Part shown: in pieces, positions 3,042-18,549 of the stretch
Layout: each line of letters begins with the position of its first letter
Numbering within the stretch: the first letter of the stretch is position 1
IMG/VR virus record: IMGVR_UViG_3300031565_014018
Location: 1-22,010 of that record
Origin: a virus
Length of the DNA stretch: 22,010 nt
Direction: 5' to 3' (one strand)
Notes under the pieces: generated by a model
Seen by the model: the letters and a program-made list of their open reading frames with translations, nothing else
Database searches by the model: none
What the model was told of the DNA's origin: nothing
Translations under genes and position numbers: made by a program

Positions 3042-6000
3042 TTAGAAATTATTTTTGAATGTATGATTGGAGAATACATCATTGATTTGTTCATATAGTG
3101 ATTTATCGCCTTCACCTGTGGTGATATTGCTATCCATGGCTAAACCATTTTGAATACTACTTACACCATGATCGCTAGCTGTCTTTTGTAGTTTGGTTCG
3201 ATGAGTAGCAATGACTCTTCGCATTGTTTCATATGCCTCAGGATTCCATTTTACAACCCGCTCAACTTCATTCTTAACAGCTTCACGACTATTGGGAATT
3301 AAACCAACTTCTCGCATTTCATGTGCAATCTCGAATGCTCGTGCAATTTTGACTTTAATGGCTTCTTCATCAACTGCAGCACTCTTTTTGTTTTCATAAT
3401 CACCAACTAAACCAGAAGCAAATTCTGAACCTCCATCAACTTGACCATAGTATTTCTTCCAATATGAAACTGCTTCAGCATCCATTCCATTGGCAACAAG
3501 TTGATCAAGATTCGCAACCTTGACTCGACCAGCTTTGATTAGGTTATCAAGCTCTTTTGCATTTGCAGCAACTTTGGCAACCTTGGGATCTTTTCTTGCA
3601 ACTTCTTCCATTTTGCTGTGTGTGGCAGGAAGGTCTTCAACAACTGCTTCACTTGATTTGGTATCAAGTTGACCTAATGTTTCACTGCCTGATGGATGAG
3701 CGCGACCTAGCATTTCACTAACCTTTAAAGCATCTGCAGCAATTTTACGACGATAACCTTTGCGTCCATCTATAGTGTTCAAATCGAATTCAGATTCAGC
3801 TTTCTTTGTTTTGCCCATCATAACTCCTCCTGGCCCACATTTGCCATCTTTGGGTTGTTTGCCTCCCTTCGTATTATCAACTTTATTCTCTTTATCAACT
3901 TTTGTAGCTTTACCAACCGCTTCTGCTTTCTCATCATCTTTTGCAGCTTTTGCAGCGGCTTTTGCAGCAGCATATTCTTCTTTTGCAGCTTTTGCAGCTT
4001 CAGCTGCTCTTTCAGCTTTTATTTTAGCTTTAACGGCTGCTTTTTCAGCTTTTGTAGCTGCAGGCATTGCCTTAGTTGCATCCTTTTGAATACCACCTTG
4101 CAGTGCAGCAGCTTTCTTTTCAAGACCTTCAGTTCCTCTTGCATATTTTACAAAAGCTTTTTGAAGCTCTTCTGCTTTTTTAATAACATCTTTTGCTTCA
4201 TCAATTGCAGCTGTAACAAGTGAGGTAACAAAATCAGCATTAACTGTTTCAATGCCAGGAATATCCATGGTACTCAAAACCATATCAACTTCTCGTTTGG
4301 TATCATTGATTTCAGCATAGATGTTTTTGAAAGAACTCATAAGACCAGCTTTCAATACTGGTTCCATATTTTGAAGTGCTTTAACAGCATCTTCTTCAGA
4401 TGCATTTTTTTCAAGAACACGCAAAGCGGCAGCAACAACTTCTTCTGGATTTTCACCTTCTGCACTCATCAAGCCACCAGGCAATTCAGGAGCATCTTCA
4501 ACAGGAGCGCTTGTGCCTTCGCCTTCAAGAACAGCTAAGCCGTCTTTGATTTCATCGGCCAATTGACTAAGAACACCCGAAACGGTTTCAGCATTTTCTT
4601 TAACAGCATCAGCAGCAAGATTTGCTTTTTCGATAGGGTCCGCAACAGAACTAGGAGTAACTCTTAATTCTGGTCCTTTCTCTTCTCCACCTTCCATAGA
4701 CTCATCCATAGGGGGCGCATCCATAGGAGGAGGCGCATCACCCATAGGAGGTGTCATTTCATCTGGGTCTTCTGTTGGAGGAGGAATTGCTCCATCTAAT
4801 TCTCCCTCTACTTGAGCTACCTTAAACATCTGTACTGTTTTTTGAACACCAGACGCATGTACTGATCGGAGTAATTCACGACCGAAATTTTTTGTACTAA
4901 CAGCTCCATAAAGAGCTGGTTTTCCACCAGTTAACTCATTAAGAGTGGCCGAAAAAACAACTTTGTTGTTCGACATAATGTCCCATCGATGATTAGGGGT
5001 ATCATCATTTCCATCTGGAGTTGCAGCCTTAATAAAATAACCCTTTAAAGAAGCTCTATTGAGTTCTTTTTTGGTTTTTGCATCATTACCCATCATTCCA
5101 TCAGGTTTGATAGTAGAATCAGCATGCATTTGTTTATCTTCTTTTTGCGCTTTATCAGCTAATGGATCTACTTTATAAGTAGTAGGCTCTTCTGTGCCTT
5201 GCATATAAGCGCTTTTATCCAACTTAGCTTTTGCTTGAGCAACAGCTTCTGCACGAAGTGCTTTTCTTTCATCAAGTTTAGCACGAGCTAGCATTTTCTT
5301 TTTCTCTAAATCACCAGGATACATCCCATCGATTGGTCCCACGTCGGGAACATTCTTCAACTGACGATCTTCGTTATTACGAACCTGTTCGGCCATTGGA
5401 TCTTTTTCATATTTTGGCTGTCCAGGAGTTGGCTCTTCTGTGCCTTGGTAGAAACCTTTTTTATCTAATTGTTTTTGGGACATTAACTCCTCCGTATTAA
5501 ATTTAGCAATTTTCCCTATCATCTCTTCTATGCTTGACATCTTAGTTTTGATAAGATTTAAGCTATTTTGGTACCCTTGACGGGTTTCGGTAACTGCCTC
5601 TTGTGCAGCCGTTGCCCTTAATGCAAAATTATTGTCATCTTTTTCTGCCAAAATTTCATGCTCGATTGACGCAACCCTCATCAACAAATCAGAAACCTCT
5701 TCTTTTATAGAAGATAGTTGCTCAAGAGTTGTTGAAGTGCCACTCTTTTTTAATGTGTTTTCAATAGTATTTGTCGCTGCAATTATTTGTCTAACTCTTG
5801 CTAGCGGGTCAGCCCCATTAACTACCAAACTTAGTTCAATTGGAGCCAAATCAACATTTATTTCACCATATGCAATTCTGTTTTTAACATGATCACAATA
5901 CTCGCCTTCAGTCTTTGCAATATTTCCGCATTCAGTACAAATGGATCTACCAACAGCCGTACCCATACTGACAGAGTTTGCTACTCCAGTCTGGACATTT

Positions 6001-6521
6001 CGTGCTAAATCCCCATAAGTAACTTTATCTAACGCACAAAGACCAATAATACATTTATTTTTTTCATCATAAAATGTATCTATAATAAGCCCACGCATAC
6101 CTTCAACACTACTGGATTGGTGGTCTTTGCATAGTGGTTTACCAACCCATTTTTTATAAGCCTTTTTTAGTTCTGATTCAGGAAAAATATCACCATTATT
6201 ATTTTTATAAGGCTTAATACTAGCATCAGAACATTTCCATTTCCAAGAACCATTACCATCTATCAACCATTCAGCTTTTACATCAGAACCATCAGCGCTT
6301 TTTCTTAATAAATTATTATCATCATATAATGATCTTTCAGCTGCATGCATCATAATAGCAGAAAAATATAAAAATTCATTAGCTTTTGGAGCTATTCTTT
6401 TATATTGTGATGCTACTTTTTTGAAACGCGCAACAACATAATCATCATTTATGGCAACATCAGTAGGCTTTACGTCATGCGTAGAAAAATTAATTGCCGA
6501 ACCAAATTTTAGTATAACCAT
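3042..6521 (-). CDS. Prohead maturation protease fused to a giant scaffold-like region
   Basis: A 1159-aa protein. Residues about 1-245 look like a capsid-maturation serine protease of the HK97/T4 gp21/herpes-assemblin fold: V-G-K-P-L-C-K-D-H with His134, and G-V-A-N-S-V-S-M-G with Ser183 or Ser185 as nucleophile. A C-x2-C...C-D-H set (C195, C198, C209, H211) follows, probably a zinc site, and the domain closes with L-A-P-I-E-L-S-L-V-V-N-G-A-D-P. The rest is scaffold-like: coiled-coil segments (250-345), two copies of a segment built on Q-G-T-E-E-P-T (352-404 and 434-480), a K-V-A-Q site (567-570) before a Pro/Met/Asp-rich linker, an Ala/Lys/Glu-rich helix (795-875), and a more ordered C-terminus (about 910-1150). 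Protease-scaffold fusions are known, but this one is unusually long. It should process head proteins and itself. The start has an ideal AAGGAG site. Confidence 0.8.
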   Translation of the reverse strand: MVILKFGSAINFSTHDVKPTDVAINDDYVVARFKKVASQYKRIAPKANEFLYFSAIMMHAAERSLYDDNNLLRKSADGSDVKAEWLIDGNGSWKWKCSDASIKPYKNNNGDIFPESELKKAYKKWVGKPLCKDHQSSSVEGMRGLIIDTFYDEKNKCIIGLCALDKVTYGDLARNVQTGVANSVSMGTAVGRSICTECGNIAKTEGEYCDHVKNRIAYGEINVDLAPIELSLVVNGADPLARVRQIIAATNTIENTLKKSGTSTTLEQLSSIKEEVSDLLMRVASIEHEILAEKDDNNFALRATAAQEAVTETRQGYQNSLNLIKTKMSSIEEMIGKIAKFNTEELMSQKQLDKKGFYQGTEEPTPGQPKYEKDPMAEQVRNNEDRQLKNVPDVGPIDGMYPGDLEKKKMLARAKLDERKALRAEAVAQAKAKLDKSAYMQGTEEPTTYKVDPLADKAQKEDKQMHADSTIKPDGMMGNDAKTKKELNRASLKGYFIKAATPDGNDDTPNHRWDIMSNNKVVFSATLNELTGGKPALYGAVSTKNFGRELLRSVHASGVQKTVQMFKVAQVEGELDGAIPPPTEDPDEMTPPMGDAPPPMDAPPMDESMEGGEEKGPELRVTPSSVADPIEKANLAADAVKENAETVSGVLSQLADEIKDGLAVLEGEGTSAPVEDAPELPGGLMSAEGENPEEVVAAALRVLEKNASEEDAVKALQNMEPVLKAGLMSSFKNIYAEINDTKREVDMVLSTMDIPGIETVNADFVTSLVTAAIDEAKDVIKKAEELQKAFVKYARGTEGLEKKAAALQGGIQKDATKAMPAATKAEKAAVKAKIKAERAAEAAKAAKEEYAAAKAAAKAAKDDEKAEAVGKATKVDKENKVDNTKGGKQPKDGKCGPGGVMMGKTKKAESEFDLNTIDGRKGYRRKIAADALKVSEMLGRAHPSGSETLGQLDTKSSEAVVEDLPATHSKMEEVARKDPKVAKVAANAKELDNLIKAGRVKVANLDQLVANGMDAEAVSYWKKYYGQVDGGSEFASGLVGDYENKKSAAVDEEAIKVKIARAFEIAHEMREVGLIPNSREAVKNEVERVVKWNPEAYETMRRVIATHRTKLQKTASDHGVSSIQNGLAMDSNITTGEGDKSLYEQINDVFSNHTFKNNF
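5082..5468 (-). repeat. Duplicated ~50-residue segment in the scaffold region
   Basis: Residues 352-404 (bases 5310-5468) and 434-480 (bases 5082-5222) of the protease/scaffold protein align: both begin L-D-K, share Q-G-T-E-E-P-T exactly, then D-P-x-A, E-D-x-Q and a D-G-M...D ending. The copies have diverged at DNA level, so this is an old duplication of a protein module and not a recent tandem copy. Confidence 0.75.
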
Positions 6522-6574
6522 ATTTCTCCTTCAATGATATCATGTATATGGAAAAATAATAGTATATCTATGCA

Positions 6575-6748
6575 TTATTGCTTCACCCATGGCGGTACAT
6601 CTTCATCGTCCGAAGCTTCTTTTTCAATCCAATCCTCATCGGGATTAGCTGCCTTCTCAAGTTTTTTTTGCAAATACTCTTCACTAACTTCTTTGCGTGG
6701 TTCGACAACACCACCAACAGAACCTTCACTATATTTTATAAATCCCAT
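6575..6748 (-). CDS. 57-aa acidic protein between phosphatase and protease genes
   Basis: A small ORF fills the gap between the phosphatase-domain gene and the protease/scaffold gene. It begins with ATG one base after the upstream stop codon and has an AGGA ribosome site 5 bases before the ATG. The product starts M-G-F-I-K-Y, has a G-S-V-G-G-V-V turn, a charged helix (about 18-33), an acidic stretch with one Trp, and ends P-P-W-V-K-Q. It has no membrane segment or catalytic motif. Its position suggests a small assembly factor or a peptide linked to the scaffold. Tight packing and the ribosome site support it being real; the function is unknown. Confidence 0.6.
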   Translation of the reverse strand: MGFIKYSEGSVGGVVEPRKEVSEEYLQKKLEKAANPDEDWIEKEASDDEDVPPWVKQ

Positions 6749-6749
6749 A

Positions 6750-8165
6750 TTATTCCTTTTTTGTTTTTAATTCAACATCTTTTTTGTCGTCACTCTCTCT
6801 AAAATCCTCACCAATAACATCTTTAGCAATTTTTCTTATAATTCTATCTTGTACAATAGATTTAATTTTAGCACATTGTTTTTGCACTTCAATTAAAATA
6901 TTTACAACATTAATTTGAAAATCTTTATCTTTCAAATTCTTTTCCATAAAATTACCCAAATCAATAGTCAAATCAGCAAGCCCACGAACTGTATCTTTTA
7001 ATGTTTGTTGCATTGGACCTATTTGAGTGTCTGTTGAAAATAAACCAAGCTGATCAACACAAGCATCAAACGATGTCTTATATTTCTCAGCTTCTTCATC
7101 GGACATTCCAACAGGCTTTAAATCATCTAATATGTCAATATATCTTGCTCCAATTAAACGCCATATGTTTTTTTTCATATTTGCACCAAAAGCTTTAAAA
7201 TGAGAAACAGATTTTGTTTCTTCCATAATATTGTAATTAATGCCTTCTGTGTTTTTAAAAAGATCTAACATTTTATTAACTGAATTTGCAATTAAAATAT
7301 CTATTAAATCTAAAAATGAACGTAATGTTTTTATAAGTTCCCTTGCTTTTTTCTTTTCACCAGCACCAATAGGTTTTGTAATATGTTGTACGTCTTGTGC
7401 TTCAAGTTTTTTTTGCAACGATTTCAATATTCCCCTTCGAATCATTTTATCTTTTATGAAAGCTTGAGATTCTGGAGAAGGCTCCGGTACAGACCACATA
7501 TCTGATACTGACGTAGAACCTCCTGGGTTTTGAAATGGAGCGTTATATCTGCTCTTATCCACCGCATCTCCTTTCATTTTGTTTCCTATAAAGTTAAGAG
7601 CAAATGTATTTTTAGAACAGTTAGGACACTTGCCTTCATGAAATGTCATTCCGCAATTATTACAATGCTCACCACTGTCTACCATGGATTCATATTCTTC
7701 AAGGCTAACTGGTTTGTCAGTATATTTACCATTATTTATTACATCCAAGTATTCTTGAACGCTATCATCATCAACACCAAGACCAAAACCCAAGTTCACA
7801 GCCTCTTGAACCGCTTGTTGTGCTGGCATATCACTATCAGTCCTAAATCTCGCAATAAACATTCCTGTTCTATCTTTACCCCACTTACAATGAACATACG
7901 TTACGTCGTCACCAACCAAAGCTACTGGGCCAATCTCGTCAATTTGTTTCAAGGCTTTTTCATGATCAAAACCGTGAATTGGAATTATAAAATGTTTGAT
8001 TCCATTTTTTTTACATTCATCTTTTATCTTTATGCCGCTATCCCTGTCTAAACTGATTATCTTATTTATGCCCCATTCTTTTTTAAGCATAGATATTTCT
8101 TCAAGATCAGGTGCTCCTCCTCGATATAGCAAATCTGGTACTACTTCAACAAACCTAGAGGGCAT
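6750..8165 (-). CDS. Tyrosine/dual-specificity phosphatase domain fused to a zinc ribbon and helical domain
   Basis: A 471-aa protein. Residues 1-145 are a cysteine-based phosphatase: the P-loop V-H-C-K-W-G-K-D-R-T-G gives HC-x5-R-T with nucleophile Cys93 and Arg99, and D-L-L-Y-R-G-G-A-P near residues 11-19 is the usual N-terminal strand/turn of the family. Asp67 in the I-H-G-F-D segment could be the general acid. The G-K-D-R-T form of the loop occurs in bacterial PTP and lipid phosphatases such as MptpB. Cys168, 171, 180 and 183 (two C-x2-C knuckles) form a zinc ribbon. Residues about 235-460 are helical and of unknown function, probably the virion- or assembly-binding part. It overlaps the 154-aa gene by 11 bases and lies in the morphogenesis operon, so the enzyme may be packaged or act during head assembly. 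The substrate (phosphoprotein, lipid or RNA 5' end) cannot be told. Confidence 0.75.
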   Translation of the reverse strand: MPSRFVEVVPDLLYRGGAPDLEEISMLKKEWGINKIISLDRDSGIKIKDECKKNGIKHFIIPIHGFDHEKALKQIDEIGPVALVGDDVTYVHCKWGKDRTGMFIARFRTDSDMPAQQAVQEAVNLGFGLGVDDDSVQEYLDVINNGKYTDKPVSLEEYESMVDSGEHCNNCGMTFHEGKCPNCSKNTFALNFIGNKMKGDAVDKSRYNAPFQNPGGSTSVSDMWSVPEPSPESQAFIKDKMIRRGILKSLQKKLEAQDVQHITKPIGAGEKKKARELIKTLRSFLDLIDILIANSVNKMLDLFKNTEGINYNIMEETKSVSHFKAFGANMKKNIWRLIGARYIDILDDLKPVGMSDEEAEKYKTSFDACVDQLGLFSTDTQIGPMQQTLKDTVRGLADLTIDLGNFMEKNLKDKDFQINVVNILIEVQKQCAKIKSIVQDRIIRKIAKDVIGEDFRESDDKKDVELKTKKE

Positions 8166-8619
8166 GTTTTACTCCACTCTTTTTTATCGCCGTCATCAAT
8201 GATGCCTCTTCGGCATTTTTGATGTTTAATTGTTTTGCTTTATCTATTATTTTACTATATAATTTTAATATTTTTTTTGCATCATCTAAATTATCATTTG
8301 CTATTTTTGATAATATCATAGATTTGGATTGTTTTTTTATTAATTGATAAACTTCATTACTTGTTGTTCCTTCTATTCCTAATTCGTAAGGATCTTTTAA
8401 TGTTAATTCGCTTGGGTCCACAGGAACATTTTCATTTAATATATTATTAATTATATCTTTATTCACTTCTACAATAACCGGAGCTTCTCCGTTTAGTGTT
8501 AATTCATTTGCTTTTTTTAATACATCTTCAGACTCAACCAATTCAGAAGCCATAACAGTAATGTTTCCAGACATAACTTGTCCTACATTAGTTAGTTTCA
8601 TAATATAAAATTTTTTCAT
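8155..8619 (-). CDS. Hypothetical 154-aa protein of the virion operon
   Basis: An unrecognised, mostly helical protein. The first 60 residues have a beta-alpha pattern (M-K-L-T-N-V-G, then P-V-I-V-E-V), the middle is Asn/Pro/Glu-rich, and the C-terminal half (about 90-150) looks like two or three helices including L-S-K-I-A-N-D. The ATG at 8617-8619 overlaps the upstream stop codon by one base (TAATG) with a GGAG ribosome site, and its own stop lies 11 bases inside the phosphatase gene, so all three are coupled. The product is probably a small assembly or virion protein that acts with its neighbours. No enzymatic motif is seen. Confidence 0.55.
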   Translation of the reverse strand: MKKFYIMKLTNVGQVMSGNITVMASELVESEDVLKKANELTLNGEAPVIVEVNKDIINNILNENVPVDPSELTLKDPYELGIEGTTSNEVYQLIKKQSKSMILSKIANDNLDDAKKILKLYSKIIDKAKQLNIKNAEEASLMTAIKKSGVKHAL

Positions 8620-12099: not shown

Positions 12100-15000
12100 T
12101 TATGCTGGAGGAGGCGGTGGGGCTCCACCTGTTGCGCCCGCGCCGCCGCCACTTGGAGGCTTTGGTGCTGGAGGCTTTGGTGCTGGAGGAGGAGGTAATC
12201 CGCCCCCTCCCATTGGAGGCGCTCCACTAGGACCGCCACTTTCTGCTTCTTCACCAGGAACTGGACCCTCTTGAGGTGTTTCACCAGGTAGAGGCGTGTC
12301 AGGAATATCTGGAACCTCATCGTTTACATCGAGAGAGCGAAGCTCACTCAATGACATATTAGCCAATGAAGCTTCTTCTTTTGCTCTAGTTGCATTTACA
12401 ATTGCTTCATGACGAATCATTCTTTGTTCATTTTCATAATCTAATCCAAGACTTCTAAATAAAGAATGCTCAGAAACAATTTTTTGCTCGCCAACAGCAA
12501 GGTTAGACAAAAATTGAATGTAATCTCCAAGATCAAACAAAGACATATGATTCCACTCAACATCGGGAATAATGAGTTTTCTTTGACCATCCACATCTTC
12601 CCAAAAATCATGCATTTGTGATATTGGAGCAAACACTTTAGATCTAATCCATTTAGATAACATATTTTGAAACTGCATGTATCTTTGTCTAAGAACATCT
12701 AAACTCAAACCACCATTTGCATAAGTGATGTCTCCAGATTCCATAATTACCTGGGGAACCATAAGTGCAATATAAATTTCTTTCATCAATCTTTCTAAGT
12801 CGGGATTGATATCGATAACTACATTGGAGCTTATCTTTTGAATATCTACGGAACCATGAGTAATAATTTTAAAGTCTTTATCATATTGCGCGGAGTTTCC
12901 TTGTATTGTAGTCTTTCCACAACGTCTTGTAACAAATAATCCTGTTGGAACTGTAAAACACCAAACTTTTCCAGCATATTGTTCAACGTTTAATAAATTA
13001 CGTTTTTCTTTTGTTTGACTATTTCTCGATGTTTTATAAACTAAAGGCAATTTACCTTTATCACTTGTTGACCACAAAACAGTATACAATGGTTGTCTTC
13101 GTCCATCAATATATTTTTCATCATCTCTCACAAAAGAAGTTGGAACAAATCCGCATTTATGCACAATTTCAAAAACATCATCTGCTAATTGTTTTGAAGT
13201 TGTATAATAAGCAAATCGTTTTGATTGTTTTTTGGGATTATCATAAACAGAACCATCTCCAGCTACTAAAGCATTTAAAAGAACTGTCAACAATCTTGGG
13301 CTTAAATCTAAAATCCATCTTGGAATATGTTTGTTAGATGATTTTGTATTTCCATCAGAATCTCCACATTCTTGTTTAAAATATTCATATAAATTTTTAT
13401 TATAAAATCTTCCTTTCCATAAATCCTCTCGTTTGTCTTTAGAAATAATTTGATGTTTGCATGATAGTTTTATAAAGTCACCAAACGCATCTGCACATTT
13501 TTTCATTTTATCATAATGTTTTGTAGTGGTTTGACAAATTTCTACCATGTGTTGATATTTATCATCACTAAAAACACAACCTTCACTAATCACATATCCT
13601 AAATATTCTAAATATAATTTTATTGGAACTTCATTATCGATAATGTTTACTGTTTTTATATCATCATTACCAGTCCATTTTATATTACTTCTAAATTTAG
13701 AATAATCATTCAAATTTAAATCTTTAGCCTCGGTTTTATGCCAATCACTCCAGATGGTTTTTCTTAAACTTCTATGACCATTAAATTCATATTGTTTGTT
13801 TGAAACCCACATTTTATGATTAGGAGTTACCATAATATCTATTTTATCATTTTTATAATGATACATTTCACCATCATGATTTTGCACATTTGCAGCAAGT
13901 GGTTCATGATATTCAAGTTCTTCAGTATCTGAATTAAAACAAGCAATTTTTATTCCGGGTTTTGGTTTGCTATCTATGACCAAACCATCAATTTCAATAT
14001 AATCAATTATTTCATAAAACTTTTTATATCCTTGATTTGTTAATACTTCCGTTTCTTCATCATGACATTCGAGTAAATTTCTCCAGTATTCTAAATCTGC
14101 TGGTGTAATTTTATATTCAGCATCAATACTGCCACCACCCAATTTCACTAACGTAATTGGATTAATCATATTGTCCGCTTGGGCATATTTACATTCTCTA
14201 AGTTTGTCCCAAAGCATTAAAGCTTTATATGCAGAAGCAATAAGACTTGTTCCTCTTGAGTCGTATGGACTTATTTTTCTCGCCAAATGAGAAATATAGA
14301 AGTTGTCTAGTGGAATGTTTTGTCCAGCCCGAACTAATTGTAAAATATTTGGTGGTATATTTCTTCGTAGTCTTATACTATCAGGATCTGTTCCAGTTAT
14401 AATTCTTCTTAATTCAGAATCAGGTCTAAGTGTAATTTGTGGTGGCCCAGAAACAACTGATCTGTTTATGTAGATGTAGTCTGGATTTTGAACAGTAACT
14501 CTGCTCCATTTACCCGTATGATCATCTAAATGCAAATAAGGAAAACATTCACCAGTTACAAAAAACTCCTGCGCCATTTCAACACAAGCATTATGTAATT
14601 GCATTTCATCAATCATAACATTAAAGAAATCTTCAATTTTTTTATCAGGACAACTAATATTTAATTTTGAAATAGGATAAGTGGAATGAAGATGAATTGC
14701 GTTATTTACAATTGGATTTAAAGCAAAAAATGCTCTTGACCAAGCGTTCATTGTACCCCTATCACGAGGGAGCTGTGTATTAGAAGTAAGCCATAATGGA
14801 CTGTATAGTTCGGGACCTTGTCTTACCGTGTCGCCCATTCCTCGCCAAGCACTACCAATAGAAGAAGACGATATTGAAGTAGAAGCGTTCTTCTTCATGA
14901 ATTCTCTTCTTTGATGGCCCGGAACCATTACAGCATGTGACATAATGCTTTGATCAACTAGCTCTTTATTTGTTTTAGAAAACGCATCAGCTGGTTGAAA

Positions 15001-15111
15001 TTTGCCTCTAATTATATCTTCATTAATATTACCATTATCACCCATAGATATTCTTGCAGCATCATTATCATTAATTCTTATAGGTTTACCGCGATTTTTA
15101 TTTCTAGACAT
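12100..15111 (-). CDS. Portal protein, interrupted in frame by an intein
   Basis: A 1003-aa precursor that should splice to 612 aa. The exteins read as a portal: residues 85-348 hold the conserved P-L-W-L start, the A-R-K-I-S-P-Y-D-S-R-G-T-S-L segment (278-290) and the following helix with K-A-L-M-L-W-D-K-L. After the intein come L-E-R-L-M-K-E-I-Y-I-A-L-M-V-P (772-786) and G-D-I-T-Y-A-N-G-G-L-S (793-803), typical of portal stem and crown regions. Twelve portals form the dodecameric ring for DNA entry at one vertex. The C-terminal 70 residues are rich in Pro and Gly and probably disordered. The gene lies directly after TerL (23-base gap), the classical TerL-portal order, with an AAAGG site before its ATG. 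Without splicing the ring should not assemble, because the intein sits inside the conserved core. Confidence 0.88.
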   Translation of the reverse strand: MSRNKNRGKPIRINDNDAARISMGDNGNINEDIIRGKFQPADAFSKTNKELVDQSIMSHAVMVPGHQRREFMKKNASTSISSSSIGSAWRGMGDTVRQGPELYSPLWLTSNTQLPRDRGTMNAWSRAFFALNPIVNNAIHLHSTYPISKLNISCPDKKIEDFFNVMIDEMQLHNACVEMAQEFFVTGECFPYLHLDDHTGKWSRVTVQNPDYIYINRSVVSGPPQITLRPDSELRRIITGTDPDSIRLRRNIPPNILQLVRAGQNIPLDNFYISHLARKISPYDSRGTSLIASAYKALMLWDKLRECKYAQADNMINPITLVKLGGGSIDAEYKITPADLEYWRNLLECHDEETEVLTNQGYKKFYEIIDYIEIDGLVIDSKPKPGIKIACFNSDTEELEYHEPLAANVQNHDGEMYHYKNDKIDIMVTPNHKMWVSNKQYEFNGHRSLRKTIWSDWHKTEAKDLNLNDYSKFRSNIKWTGNDDIKTVNIIDNEVPIKLYLEYLGYVISEGCVFSDDKYQHMVEICQTTTKHYDKMKKCADAFGDFIKLSCKHQIISKDKREDLWKGRFYNKNLYEYFKQECGDSDGNTKSSNKHIPRWILDLSPRLLTVLLNALVAGDGSVYDNPKKQSKRFAYYTTSKQLADDVFEIVHKCGFVPTSFVRDDEKYIDGRRQPLYTVLWSTSDKGKLPLVYKTSRNSQTKEKRNLLNVEQYAGKVWCFTVPTGLFVTRRCGKTTIQGNSAQYDKDFKIITHGSVDIQKISSNVVIDINPDLERLMKEIYIALMVPQVIMESGDITYANGGLSLDVLRQRYMQFQNMLSKWIRSKVFAPISQMHDFWEDVDGQRKLIIPDVEWNHMSLFDLGDYIQFLSNLAVGEQKIVSEHSLFRSLGLDYENEQRMIRHEAIVNATRAKEEASLANMSLSELRSLDVNDEVPDIPDTPLPGETPQEGPVPGEEAESGGPSGAPPMGGGGLPPPPAPKPPAPKPPSGGGAGATGGAPPPPPA
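12895..14067 (-). mobile_element. Intein with LAGLIDADG homing endonuclease in the portal gene
   Basis: The 391-residue insertion runs from Cys349 to Asn739 of the precursor. Block A is C-H-D-E-E-T-E-V-L-T, the usual splice-domain start. Block B has V-T-P-N-H with Thr429 and His432 (T-x2-H). Blocks C and E carry two LAGLIDADG motifs, L-G-Y-V-I-S-E-G (504-511) and A-L-V-A-G-D-G (614-620), with acidic residues Glu510 and Asp619 kept. Block F is V-W-C-F-T-V-P-T-G-L-F-V-T-R-R and block G ends I-Q-G-N, followed by Ser740 as the +1 nucleophile. The penultimate residue is Gly where His is usual. All residues needed for splicing and for a two-motif endonuclease appear present, so it should splice and may still home into intein-free portal genes. 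Confidence 0.93.
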
Positions 15112-15134: not shown

Positions 15135-17012
15135 TCAACTTGAACCAAATGTTTTCATATTAGGCAAATACACTGATAACGCTTGTGTTTTACTTATGCC
15201 GTGTTGCTCTTTGCCGAACAAAAGATTAGTGTTTTTAAAACCTTTACTAATATAAAATTTATATGCAAGATAAGCATTTAATAAAGACATAAAACCATCA
15301 TTAGGTGTTAATCCTTTTACATAATTAAATTTAGCATTATTAGATCTGTCTCTTGTTATTTTTACTTCCATACTAGAACAATGATTAACTAACCAAGCAA
15401 TATGCTCAAAACTTCCAAGTGGAAATCTAAAGCAACCTTTTTTCATTAACATAAACATTTCTTCAATATAATAATTTCTATCAAATACTATAGTTTTTGG
15501 AAATACATGTTCATTAAATTTAATTTTCTTTAGCAAACGACCACCTGCAGCTTCGCTTGCAAGAAACTTTTTATCGTATTTGGCTTGCAAGAGCTGACTT
15601 AAATCTCCAGCATAACCAATATCTCCAACTCCTATTGTCACGTTATAATTCATATATACCTGATCAACAATGTCTAATTTATATTGTAAATCATTTTGTT
15701 TTAATTTATGTGCAAATTGAATTTCAAATCTTTCAGGTCCTTCAACGCTCATTACAACAATTGTGCTAAAAGATTGGCCTTGTTGCTGTTTTTTTGATTT
15801 AGAATCAGCAACATCTGCATCAGCTCTTTTCCCCCAGTCAGCCCCCATAAAAACTAATTTATTTTCAGAAGAAAGAATTCTTTTTCGCATTTTTCTTCCT
15901 AGATCACCACAAAACTCTCTAATTTGATCAGCAGTAATTCCAAGACCCTGTCCTGAATAAAACTCTCCTAATACTTCATTCATCCACGCTCTTTCAGTAT
16001 TGATCGGGTGAATGCCTGGTTTTTCAGCTTCAATTTTTTCTCTAGTAAAATTAGGCATATAAAGTTGATTGATGTGATAACCTATTAAATCACACTCATC
16101 TTCATCAAGTCCAATCCATTTACCTCTTTCAGTTGCTTTTCTTTTATCTTGTAAATGAGAACAATGAGGGCATTTTACGGTAAATTTATAAAGCCATATT
16201 TTTTCCCAACTATCTGAACCAGGAACATAAAGAGGAAAATATTCATTACAACTTTCACATCTTAAATGAAAAAGTTGTTGAGTAGATTTCATCCACATAG
16301 CATAATATTCAGAATCTCTATTTTTTGGTGTTCCCATGAAAACTTGAACACCACCAGGAGATTGCCCATATTGAGACATTGTCATCATTTTAATTGCATT
16401 AGATAATGCCGCTGCTGGCATATCTTGAATTTCATCAAATATAATAGAGTCAACAGTTCGTCCTCTTAATCTCGAAGCATCCACACCTGTTGATTCAACC
16501 CATATATGATTTCCATTTTGAAATTCTTTATATTGTAAACTTTCATTAACATTTTGGCTAATGAGGTTTTCCATAAATGATTTTATTTTTTTACCAGGCT
16601 TTGGCGTTTCATTACATCGAATAGCTTGAGAAATAGCTGCATTTAATTTTGTTTTAGTATAAGCTGCAGCAATATCTAATTGAGGAAAACAATGCATGAC
16701 ACGCATTGGTGGTCTACCATTGTTTCCAAAAGCACCACAACCCATCCAATACATTTCTAAATTTGCCGCCATTGTTGTAGCCCCAACCTGACGACCTTTT
16801 AAAAATATAATTGGTTTTGCATTTCTATCTAAAGCTTTTATACCAATGTGACGATACATATCAACAAAAGGTTTGTAACCATTTCCCCTCAATTTAAATG
16901 GTTTACCATCTAATGTTAAATGGTTTTCACAAAAATAAACAGGATCTAAATTTAAAACCGATTCTTTCATGGTGTTAAAAATAGTGGAATTATCTAAAAC
17001 ATTATTATTCAT
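15135..17012 (-). CDS. terL: Terminase large subunit
   Basis: A 625-aa packaging motor. The ATPase has Walker A K-G-R-Q-V-G-A-T-T (72-80) and Walker B S-I-I-F-D-E (189-194, catalytic Glu194), with a likely coupling motif M-G-T-P at 226-229. A four-cysteine zinc knuckle (C252, C255, C281, C284) lies between ATPase and nuclease, as in GpA-type terminases. The RNase H-like nuclease shows M-G-A-D-W-G (Asp392), G-D-I-G (Asp464) and N-D-G-F (Asp572) as metal-binding acids. It cuts concatemers and translocates DNA through the portal encoded next. No good Shine-Dalgarno precedes the ATG; an inverted repeat overlaps the start instead. Length and motif order are normal, and no intein is present in this gene. 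Confidence 0.95.
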   Translation of the reverse strand: MNNNVLDNSTIFNTMKESVLNLDPVYFCENHLTLDGKPFKLRGNGYKPFVDMYRHIGIKALDRNAKPIIFLKGRQVGATTMAANLEMYWMGCGAFGNNGRPPMRVMHCFPQLDIAAAYTKTKLNAAISQAIRCNETPKPGKKIKSFMENLISQNVNESLQYKEFQNGNHIWVESTGVDASRLRGRTVDSIIFDEIQDMPAAALSNAIKMMTMSQYGQSPGGVQVFMGTPKNRDSEYYAMWMKSTQQLFHLRCESCNEYFPLYVPGSDSWEKIWLYKFTVKCPHCSHLQDKRKATERGKWIGLDEDECDLIGYHINQLYMPNFTREKIEAEKPGIHPINTERAWMNEVLGEFYSGQGLGITADQIREFCGDLGRKMRKRILSSENKLVFMGADWGKRADADVADSKSKKQQQGQSFSTIVVMSVEGPERFEIQFAHKLKQNDLQYKLDIVDQVYMNYNVTIGVGDIGYAGDLSQLLQAKYDKKFLASEAAGGRLLKKIKFNEHVFPKTIVFDRNYYIEEMFMLMKKGCFRFPLGSFEHIAWLVNHCSSMEVKITRDRSNNAKFNYVKGLTPNDGFMSLLNAYLAYKFYISKGFKNTNLLFGKEQHGISKTQALSVYLPNMKTFGSS

Positions 17013-17028
17013 ACTGTATATGCAGTAT
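17011..17028. promoter_or_regulatory. Inverted repeat across the terL start codon
   Basis: ATACTG (17011-17016) and CAGTAT (17023-17028) form a 6-bp inverted repeat around a 6-base A/T-rich centre. It overlaps the terL ATG (17010-17012). It could be an operator for a dimeric repressor or a weak hairpin limiting initiation. The terL start lacks a ribosome site, which makes start-region control plausible, but the repeat is short. Confidence 0.35.
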
Positions 17029-17062
17029 AATTGAATTAAATTAAAATTATTTTTTAACTATG

Positions 17063-17713
17063 CTAATATTTAGACGATGGTGTTAGAATATCAAAAACGC
17101 CGTCATCCATTCTTACTGGCGTGTTGTGTCCTGTAAAATCTTTCAAGCTTTTATTTTGGCCATTCAATAAGTTTTCTGTAATAAAAATTTTAAGCCTAGG
17201 ATCTTCTGAATGATAATCTTTACCTAAAACCTCATTTACGTGTTCTATTTCACCAAGAGAACCATCATTATTTTCAATTAAGGTCGGTGTAATTTCTTCC
17301 ATGATAAAATTCAAAACTGGTTCCAATTGGAACGCATTATATCTTTTAATGTATCCAGTAATTGCTTCTTGAACACCAGGAATATCAAGCAACGAAACAC
17401 CATCCATAGTTATTTCTTTAATGTCAGTTTTTGTAGCTATTTTTTTTGTTGCTTTTTCTTTCTCTTCAGCAGCCTGCACTTCTTTTTGATATGCTTCCAA
17501 TCCTGTTCTTTCAATCAAATCAGCAACCATCTCAGCAACGGTTGTTTTTTTATGATTCATATAATTAACTCTCGTTAAAGATGATTGAATCTGATCACTA
17601 ATGCTTGTGGTGCTTTTTTTTGATAGATTTTTTTCAAAAGAATCTTGCAATTCATTGGACTCACTTGGGCCAAAATCAGATCGTTCAAACTCATACGCTC
17701 TATTAAAACTCAT
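17063..17713 (-). CDS. Protein preceding TerL (small-terminase position), function unassigned
   Basis: A 216-aa protein. The N-terminal 55 residues are polar and Ser-rich; residues 55-100 are helical and strongly charged (K-T-T-V-A-E-M-V-A-D-L-I-E-R-T-G, then E-E-K-E-K-A-T-K-K), a possible coiled coil. Residues 100-190 form a likely folded helical domain with D-I-P-G-V-Q-E-A-I-T-G-Y-I and N-F-I-M-E-E-I-T-P. The gene sits immediately upstream of terL, where many phages carry the small terminase subunit, and a helical oligomer would fit. I see no clear DNA-binding helix-turn-helix, so I do not assign terS. It has an AAGGA site 6 bases before its ATG and follows the 275-aa gene by 8 bases. Confidence 0.5.
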   Translation of the reverse strand: MSFNRAYEFERSDFGPSESNELQDSFEKNLSKKSTTSISDQIQSSLTRVNYMNHKKTTVAEMVADLIERTGLEAYQKEVQAAEEKEKATKKIATKTDIKEITMDGVSLLDIPGVQEAITGYIKRYNAFQLEPVLNFIMEEITPTLIENNDGSLGEIEHVNEVLGKDYHSEDPRLKIFITENLLNGQNKSLKDFTGHNTPVRMDDGVFDILTPSSKY

Positions 17714-17721
17714 ATCAATCC

Positions 17722-18549
17722 TTATGCTTGGTAACCCTTAATCCATTCACCTTCTCCATCATTAATATCTAACACCCCATCAAGAATTCTAATTCTATCT
17801 ATTGTAAGAGGATAATTCATATCTTTAATTAATTGAATAACTTGTACTTTTTCACGTTTGTCTAAAGTATATTCTTTACCAAGTTTTTCAAAAGTATCCT
17901 TCATATCTTTACCACCTTGAACTGATGCATCAATGCATGCTCTGGCAATAAAAGAAATTATATAAGGTACAACTATTTGGATATTACCAGTAGTAGATGT
18001 TTCAGCTTCTTTTATAAGATCATTTTTTTCAAAAGCTTTTTTCTTGTTTTCTTTTTCTAAAAGTTTTTTAAGCCGATCATTTAACTTATTTAACCCATCT
18101 CGAATCAGATTTCGAGCTTCTTGAGCTTTAGCAAAATCAATTTCTCGTTTAAAATCTTTAGACATTGCTCTGCTTATTTCTGTATCCAATCGCTTGAAAT
18201 AAGATAAAGCTCTTTCAACCCCAGTGGTAGCTTTGCCATCATGATTAGGAGTGCTGTCAATCATGTGTTTTAGCCAATGTAAGAATTTTCCAACACCATG
18301 AGATTTTTCCCAATTCCAATCATCAATCTCTTCTGGCTCCTCCATAATAATTTCTTGTAACTCTTCATCTTCTTCTTCATCTTCATCTGGCTCTCCTAAA
18401 ATAACTTCATCAGGAGCCCCTGGAACTAGACCAATAGTAAATATAATTTCTTCATCTTCTTGAGGTTCATCTAATACTACAGGTTCGCCTTCTGGAGAAG
18501 GAATTGGAATTGGAAATTCTATTAACTGAGCGTTTTTTTTATTTGACAT
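17722..18549 (-). CDS. Acidic N-terminal, helical C-terminal protein upstream of terminase
   Basis: I prefer the ATG at 18547-18549 (275 aa); a TTG five codons upstream would give 280 aa, and neither has a strong ribosome site. The product starts M-S-N-K-K-N-A-Q, so a K-x-A-Q site lies at residues 5-8. Residues 9-80 are Pro-rich and then strongly acidic. The rest is helical: a W-N-W-E-K-S-H-G-V-G-K-F segment (about 79-90), a charged coiled coil (about 140-180), and a compact domain (about 190-270) including I-V-V-P-Y-I-I-S-F-I-A-R-A. That last segment is hydrophobic but too short for a confident membrane helix. The function is unknown; its position between the CCA-enzyme cluster and terminase suggests packaging or head assembly. 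The 50-base gap before it contains TATAAATA on the minus strand. Confidence 0.55.
   Translation of the reverse strand: MSNKKNAQLIEFPIPIPSPEGEPVVLDEPQEDEEIIFTIGLVPGAPDEVILGEPDEDEEEDEELQEIIMEEPEEIDDWNWEKSHGVGKFLHWLKHMIDSTPNHDGKATTGVERALSYFKRLDTEISRAMSKDFKREIDFAKAQEARNLIRDGLNKLNDRLKKLLEKENKKKAFEKNDLIKEAETSTTGNIQIVVPYIISFIARACIDASVQGGKDMKDTFEKLGKEYTLDKREKVQVIQLIKDMNYPLTIDRIRILDGVLDINDGEGEWIKGYQA

Follow-up and report, generated by a model that had tools for sequence, protein, structure and literature searches.

A predicted Cys-based phosphatase gene in the head operons of a group of large tailed phages

The locus and its fused gene

The window, by which we mean the whole stretch of DNA analyzed, is a 22,010-nt uncultivated virus record (IMGVR_UViG_3300031565_014018, positions 1 to 22,010). 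A head operon runs along one of its strands in the order TerL, portal with an intein, several unknown genes, orf154, phosphatase, a protease/scaffold-like gene and structural-looking genes. The features are as follows.

15135..17012, minus strand: large terminase subunit (TerL), from a PHROGs match
12100..15111, minus strand: portal gene with an in-frame intein (phrog_16240 portal, E=3.8e-39; LAGLIDADG_3)
8155..8619, minus strand: orf154, an open reading frame upstream of the phosphatase gene, overlapping its start by 11 bp
6750..8165, minus strand: fused phosphatase gene (open reading frame, 471 aa), with PTP-type domain, zinc ribbon, disordered linker and helical domain
7716..8165, minus strand: phosphatase domain, residues 1-150 (Pfam, PDB profile search, model pLDDT 91-98, Foldseek)
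7863..7892, minus strand: P-loop HCKWGKDRTG, residues 92-101 (conservation in aligned phosphatase rows)
7617..7664, minus strand: CxxC...CxxC zinc ribbon, residues 168-183 (C168, C171, C180, C183), from the sequence
7485..7607, minus strand: disordered linker, residues 187-227 (pLDDT < 50)
6798..7475, minus strand: helical domain, about residues 231-456 (HMM matches to a separate gene in relatives; model)
6522..6749, minus strand: non-coding gap preceding the protease gene, kept across the clade
3042..6521, minus strand: prohead protease/scaffold-like protein, 1159 aa (phrog_18299 head maturation protease, E=1.8e-11)

The fused gene starts with the ATG at 8165 on the minus strand. An earlier, sequence-only reading had marked positions 7746-8165, which are the first 140 codons of the 6750-8165 frame, and had described a complete P-loop with Cys93 and Arg99, followed by a zinc ribbon and a helical region. 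Both descriptions are borne out: H92, C93 and R99 lie in HCKWGKDRTGM where they had been placed, and they are followed by C168, C171, C180 and C183 and by helices modelled over residues 231-451. The four-Cys pattern is limited to the branch of the window (the window, L004 and L034); the other relatives in that alignment lack it.

The structure model of the fused protein, run with 105 alignment rows, has a mean pLDDT of 84.7, and replaces a single-sequence AlphaFold model (pLDDT 37.6) that was discarded. Residues 231-451 are mostly long helices in this model, with pLDDT of 92-98 over most of 268-451. The helical domain drew no match of its own among the PDB and BFVD hits listed, and none from the phage collection.

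The non-coding stretch ahead of the protease gene is at least 139 bp long in all 83 loci measured, usually 140-310 bp with a median of 263 bp; a promoter scan of this gap gave nothing above chance worth naming. Two other features of these operons may be recorded here. A close relative, L005, has an intein-free portal homologue (501-2255), while intein-like matches occur in TerL of L025 and L026 and in the portal of L031, L032 and L033. The head operon of the window also includes a gene for a CCA-adding/poly(A)-polymerase head-domain nucleotidyltransferase (PF01743, 19092-19898), with relatives in about 40 annotated loci.

Fold and family placement

Pfam, profile and fold comparisons all point to a PTP-type domain, and a chance motif is ruled out as the sole basis of the assignment. 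Pfam Y_phosphatase2 matches residues 2-121 of the window protein with E=9.3e-6 and 25.8 bits against a curated cut-off of 27, which relatives exceed (L004 with 30.7 bits, L016 with 50.0 bits). In the PDB, a 7-row profile matched Pseudomonas aeruginosa TpbA (E=2e-14), as well as At1g05000/PFA-DSP1 and Siw14, and Foldseek with the model returned PTP-fold enzymes first, with TpbA, Siw14 and PFA-DSP1 at probability 1.00. By its HCx5R P-loop and modelled PTP fold the window protein is a member of the PTP (CX5R) superfamily, and a predicted phosphatase.

Its best profile and fold matches are thus Siw14/PFA-DSP1 (Y_phosphatase2) and TpbA, and a relative in BFVD, A0A6J5RU40 from an uncultured Caudovirales phage, is already named "SIW14-like". 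The bacterial relatives stand alone as enzymes and have apparent export signals; in contrast to such exported, TpbA-like enzymes, the phage proteins are not exported and carry a helical partner or a tail. With the MptpB-type atypical lipid phosphatases (Y_phosphatase3; PMC3091653) the window protein shares the HCxxGKDR[TA]G P-loop, and among its phage relatives a D-loop Asp is not kept consistently, although the window has one (D67). It has no export signal, is nearer to Y_phosphatase2 and is encoded in a phage head operon. As it scores 19.6 bits against the Y_phosphatase3 cut-off of 22.2 bits, we describe it as working like these enzymes and do not assign it to them, even if some phage relatives (L089, and L105 with 32.4 bits) pass that cut-off. 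The substrates of MptpB-type enzymes include both phosphoinositides and phosphopeptides (PMC3091653). With a P-loop of this HCxxGKDR type the substrate need not be phosphotyrosine, and the name "tyrosine phosphatase" is premature.

Some matches were left out of the clade: L037, a free-standing lipoprotein-like phosphatase in a different context, and L055-L062, which are weak bacterial matches. A match named "Acinetobacter phage MD-2021a" was rejected as a phage relative because it is a piece of bacterial chromosome (secA, ahpC, accD); both CAKLQH020000002.1 and CAKLQF020000003.1 bear this name and resemble bacterial chromosome (secA, accD, folC). The phosphatase tree, which has long branches, does not separate phage proteins from bacterial homologues as a single clade (4 changes), and so a single gain is not established.

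Active site and the case for catalysis

Across 61 diverse aligned phosphatase rows, H92, C93, G96, R99, T100, G101, S38, D40, G16 and P19 are invariant (61/61), and D98 is kept in 98% of them. By the chemistry of the family, C93 would be the nucleophile that forms a phospho-cysteine intermediate and R99 would bind phosphate. The usual D-loop Asp is not consistently conserved: D67 of the window has a counterpart in 45/61 rows, in a column that is not fixed, and 16/61 rows lack it. For this reason the P-loop Asp, D98, is the candidate general acid, by analogy with MptpB-type enzymes, in which the Asp of the HCxxGKDR signature is catalytic and likely acts as the general acid (PMC3091653). Between the window and L004 the phosphatase domain has a dN of 0.13 and a dS of 1.25, which, with dS near saturation, indicates purifying selection in a qualitative sense.

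Such an intact active site suggests a catalytically competent product. It also bears on whether the protein is an exapted structural component of the head, in which the phosphatase fold now serves mainly as a binding module. Two loci, L074 and L075, have kept the gene and its position while their catalytic residues are lost and the P-loop destroyed, as such a role would allow, and catalysis is therefore dispensable in that lineage. However, the P-loop would not be preserved if the role were purely structural, and HCxxGxxR is kept in 89/91 distinct proteins (88/91 in the form HCxxGxDR) with a median domain identity of 39% among relatives; the stricter HCxxGKDR[TV]G is present in 80/91. We consider the binding-module role very improbable.

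Synteny and co-divergence in relatives

The first protein scans recovered two identical contigs (L002/L003), in which the fused protein is identical, and L004, in which it has 76% identity. An initial automatic profile scan gave known loci only, and it was a hand-made degenerate P-loop pattern that opened up the clade; combined with a domain alignment, it located the phosphatase gene in contigs of up to 338 kb. In a set of 12 large contigs tested (266-481 kb), every one has the gene.

So that the phosphatase would not select its own loci, IMG/VR was scanned with alignments of the protease and the portal, not the phosphatase, and the resulting loci (best 80 of 256 and best 80 of 255) were annotated with profile HMMs. 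The phosphatase is present in 74 of the 76 distinct loci in which portal and protease occur together, and the order portal-phosphatase-protease on one strand holds in 74/74 of those that bear it; the helical domain is matched in 76/76. Since the queries came from phosphatase-bearing loci and the best 80 were taken per scan, the 74/76 count is a statement about this clade. Within the clade, the linkage that the sequence-only reading had noticed, of a Cys phosphatase joined to a helical region amid head genes, stands, but its description as unexpected does not, the arrangement being the normal one.

The spacing of the genes is tight. In relatives, orf154 and the phosphatase gene usually overlap by 1 or 4 bp (median -4 bp), and the junction between phosphatase and helical gene has a median of 3.5 bp. 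Phosphatase distances follow those of the neighboring proteins, with Mantel r of 0.702 for the protease and 0.714 for the portal, where the largest of 999 shuffles gave about 0.28. This tracking fits a vertically inherited core gene, and as part of our best explanation we regard the phosphatase as an ancestral, vertically inherited component of the head operon in a clade of large tailed phages.

The phage collection yielded no cultured member of the clade. The head operon of Bacillus phage G is comparable in having homologues of the portal (gp14, E=8e-99) and of the protease-like protein (gp19, E=2e-41), but the phosphatase is absent from the whole 497-kb phage G genome, and one Bixzunavirus, whose portal and protease are also homologous, likewise has none.

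Relocations and fusions

The two loci without a phosphatase in its usual place differ from each other. L130, a 13-kb fragment, has none between portal and protease. In L156 the gene is missing from the head operon, and the same 131-kb contig carries it elsewhere (L028, 9962-12736), among tail and baseplate genes (Baseplate_J, tape-measure-like), with an IS200/IS605 tnpA/tnpB pair alongside. In moving there, it has stayed among virion genes.

The helical domain has a gene of its own in most loci, beginning no more than a few tens of bases from where the phosphatase gene stops. Fusions of the two are found at three separated places in the tree (window/L004/L034, L089/L203, and L090), and the fusion has arisen more than once. 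A different fusion is seen in L202 (16900-18588), where the phosphatase domain is joined to a Nudix domain, with a DUF5661 match in addition. On the opposite strand of L004, downstream of the structural genes, we noted by eye an ATP-grasp-like and an IMP dehydrogenase/GMP reductase-like sequence (16583-18345).

A PxVG peptide near the C-termini of the phosphatase and the protease/scaffold protein

The C-terminus of most unfused phosphatases is a conserved tail of roughly the form [VI]PxVGxYDNDAGxRGFGPxExxGGF. The PxVG at its core lies in the last 90 residues of 58/89 phosphatases (0.60 expected from shuffles) and of 68/109 protease/scaffold proteins (0.00 expected), with only 3 occurrences in about 890 proteins of 16 other labelled operon families. 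Its distance to the C-terminus is mostly 34-45 residues in the protease/scaffold protein (about 38) and 26-31 in the phosphatase; L105 is one unfused relative that has it in both. As the motif-bearing rows are related, these counts are not independent, and their weight lies in the coincidence of the motif in two unrelated neighboring proteins. In the window, the fused phosphatase has no PxVG tail, and in its protease the corresponding position is occupied by SIQNGL.

The peptide may be a prohead sorting or docking signal, or a site of protease cleavage. Repeated cleavage sites inside the scaffold were considered and rejected, given that 67/68 motif-bearing proteins have one copy each.

The peptide and the gene arrangement also bear on the idea that the product is a late cytoplasmic enzyme, clearing a metabolite or signal such as an inositol phosphate, nucleotide or lipid phosphate, and merely co-transcribed with the head genes. 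The HCxxGKDR P-loop is of a kind with phosphoinositide activity (PMC3091653), one homologue is fused to a Nudix domain, the bacterial relatives are free-standing with apparent export signals, and the gene is able to relocate, as in L028. Against this, its position is fixed, with overlapping start and stop, it has been fused repeatedly to a helical head-operon protein, and it has the C-terminal PxVG in common with the protease/scaffold protein only. Taking both sides together, we find such a bystander enzyme distinctly unlikely.

Assembly factor or packaged enzyme

Neighborhood, fusion and shared tail favor a place in the prohead, and prohead association has thereby gained support from the genes themselves. 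Our best reading is a late, head-associated phosphatase that probably enters the prohead and stays on in the virion; we infer this virion location, as well as activity and substrate. It would be made late, along with the prohead protease/scaffold protein and the helical partner, with which it forms one predicted polypeptide in the window. The helical part, together with the PxVG peptide in unfused relatives, would bring the phosphatase into the prohead.

What the enzyme would do from there is less certain; the sequence-only reading had raised two roles, packaging with injection to alter host signalling, or control of a phosphorylation step in assembly. It may be packaged with the head, enter the next cell with the DNA and remove phosphate from a host molecule, a reading that we hold tentatively, at somewhat short of even confidence. 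The fuller version, a prohead-resident core virion enzyme that is recruited by PxVG or fusion, delivered with the genome and directed, as infection begins, at a signalling molecule of the host, is more tentative again. There are precedents for parts of this. In giant phages of the SPN3US/phiKZ type, enzymes are packaged with the head and ejected, and in SPN3US the prohead protease cleaves them (PMC10052503). Like these ejected proteins and the polyvalent proteins of phages, the phosphatase is encoded with head genes, its packaging here being a prediction; the papers searched contained no packaged phosphatase of this kind. Vaccinia VH1 is a dual-specificity phosphatase carried in virions, with known substrate and packaging. 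The likeness would be that of one virion phosphatase to another, Vaccinia being an unrelated virus.

Alternatively, the phosphatase might act in the producing cell during head morphogenesis, on scaffold, portal or a host factor, licensing for example the activation of the protease, in which case its presence in the virion would be unneeded. Near-universal retention is no less compatible with such an assembly function than with an injected effector, for which variation across the clade would often be expected, and to this extent conservation of the phosphatase counts against packaging. Further points against the packaged enzyme are that PxVG may be a cleavage or a docking site and is missing from the fused protein of the window, that the P-loop is destroyed in L074/L075, that 16/61 rows have no D-loop Asp, and that the L130 fragment has no phosphatase in place. 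Core-gene behavior (74/76 distinct loci among the best 80 of 256 and of 255, and co-divergence with portal and protease), the adjoining protease/scaffold gene with its common C-terminal peptide, and the pseudophosphatase of L074/L075, which suggests a place in an assembly complex, all agree with it. However, phage G and the Bixzunavirus, which have homologues of the portal and protease, form heads in the absence of a phosphatase, and there is no conserved phage kinase of the Hanks type to supply a substrate. Pkinase scores over its curated cut-off in 2/12 large contigs, and with Hanks-type kinases in just these two, a phage kinase-phosphatase pair was rejected; a phosphoprotein substrate would then be phosphorylated by the host, or by another type of kinase. 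On this evidence we rate a role confined to assembly as unlikely, and retain the packaged, head-associated phosphatase as our preferred reading.

The PTP fold and the "SIW14-like" entry were known before; what is new is the place of the gene in the head operon, and in the open-licence papers searched, no description was found of a phosphatase gene conserved in head operons. The PxVG peptide may provide a handle on sorting into, or cutting in, these proheads, and a motif with which to seek other cargo. An intact phosphatase at a fixed place beside the prohead protease suggests that making or delivering these particles may need the removal of phosphate. A near-obligatory, metal-independent phosphatase in the head operon would point to a step in virion production or delivery that depends on phosphorylation, a step that is absent from T4-style models.
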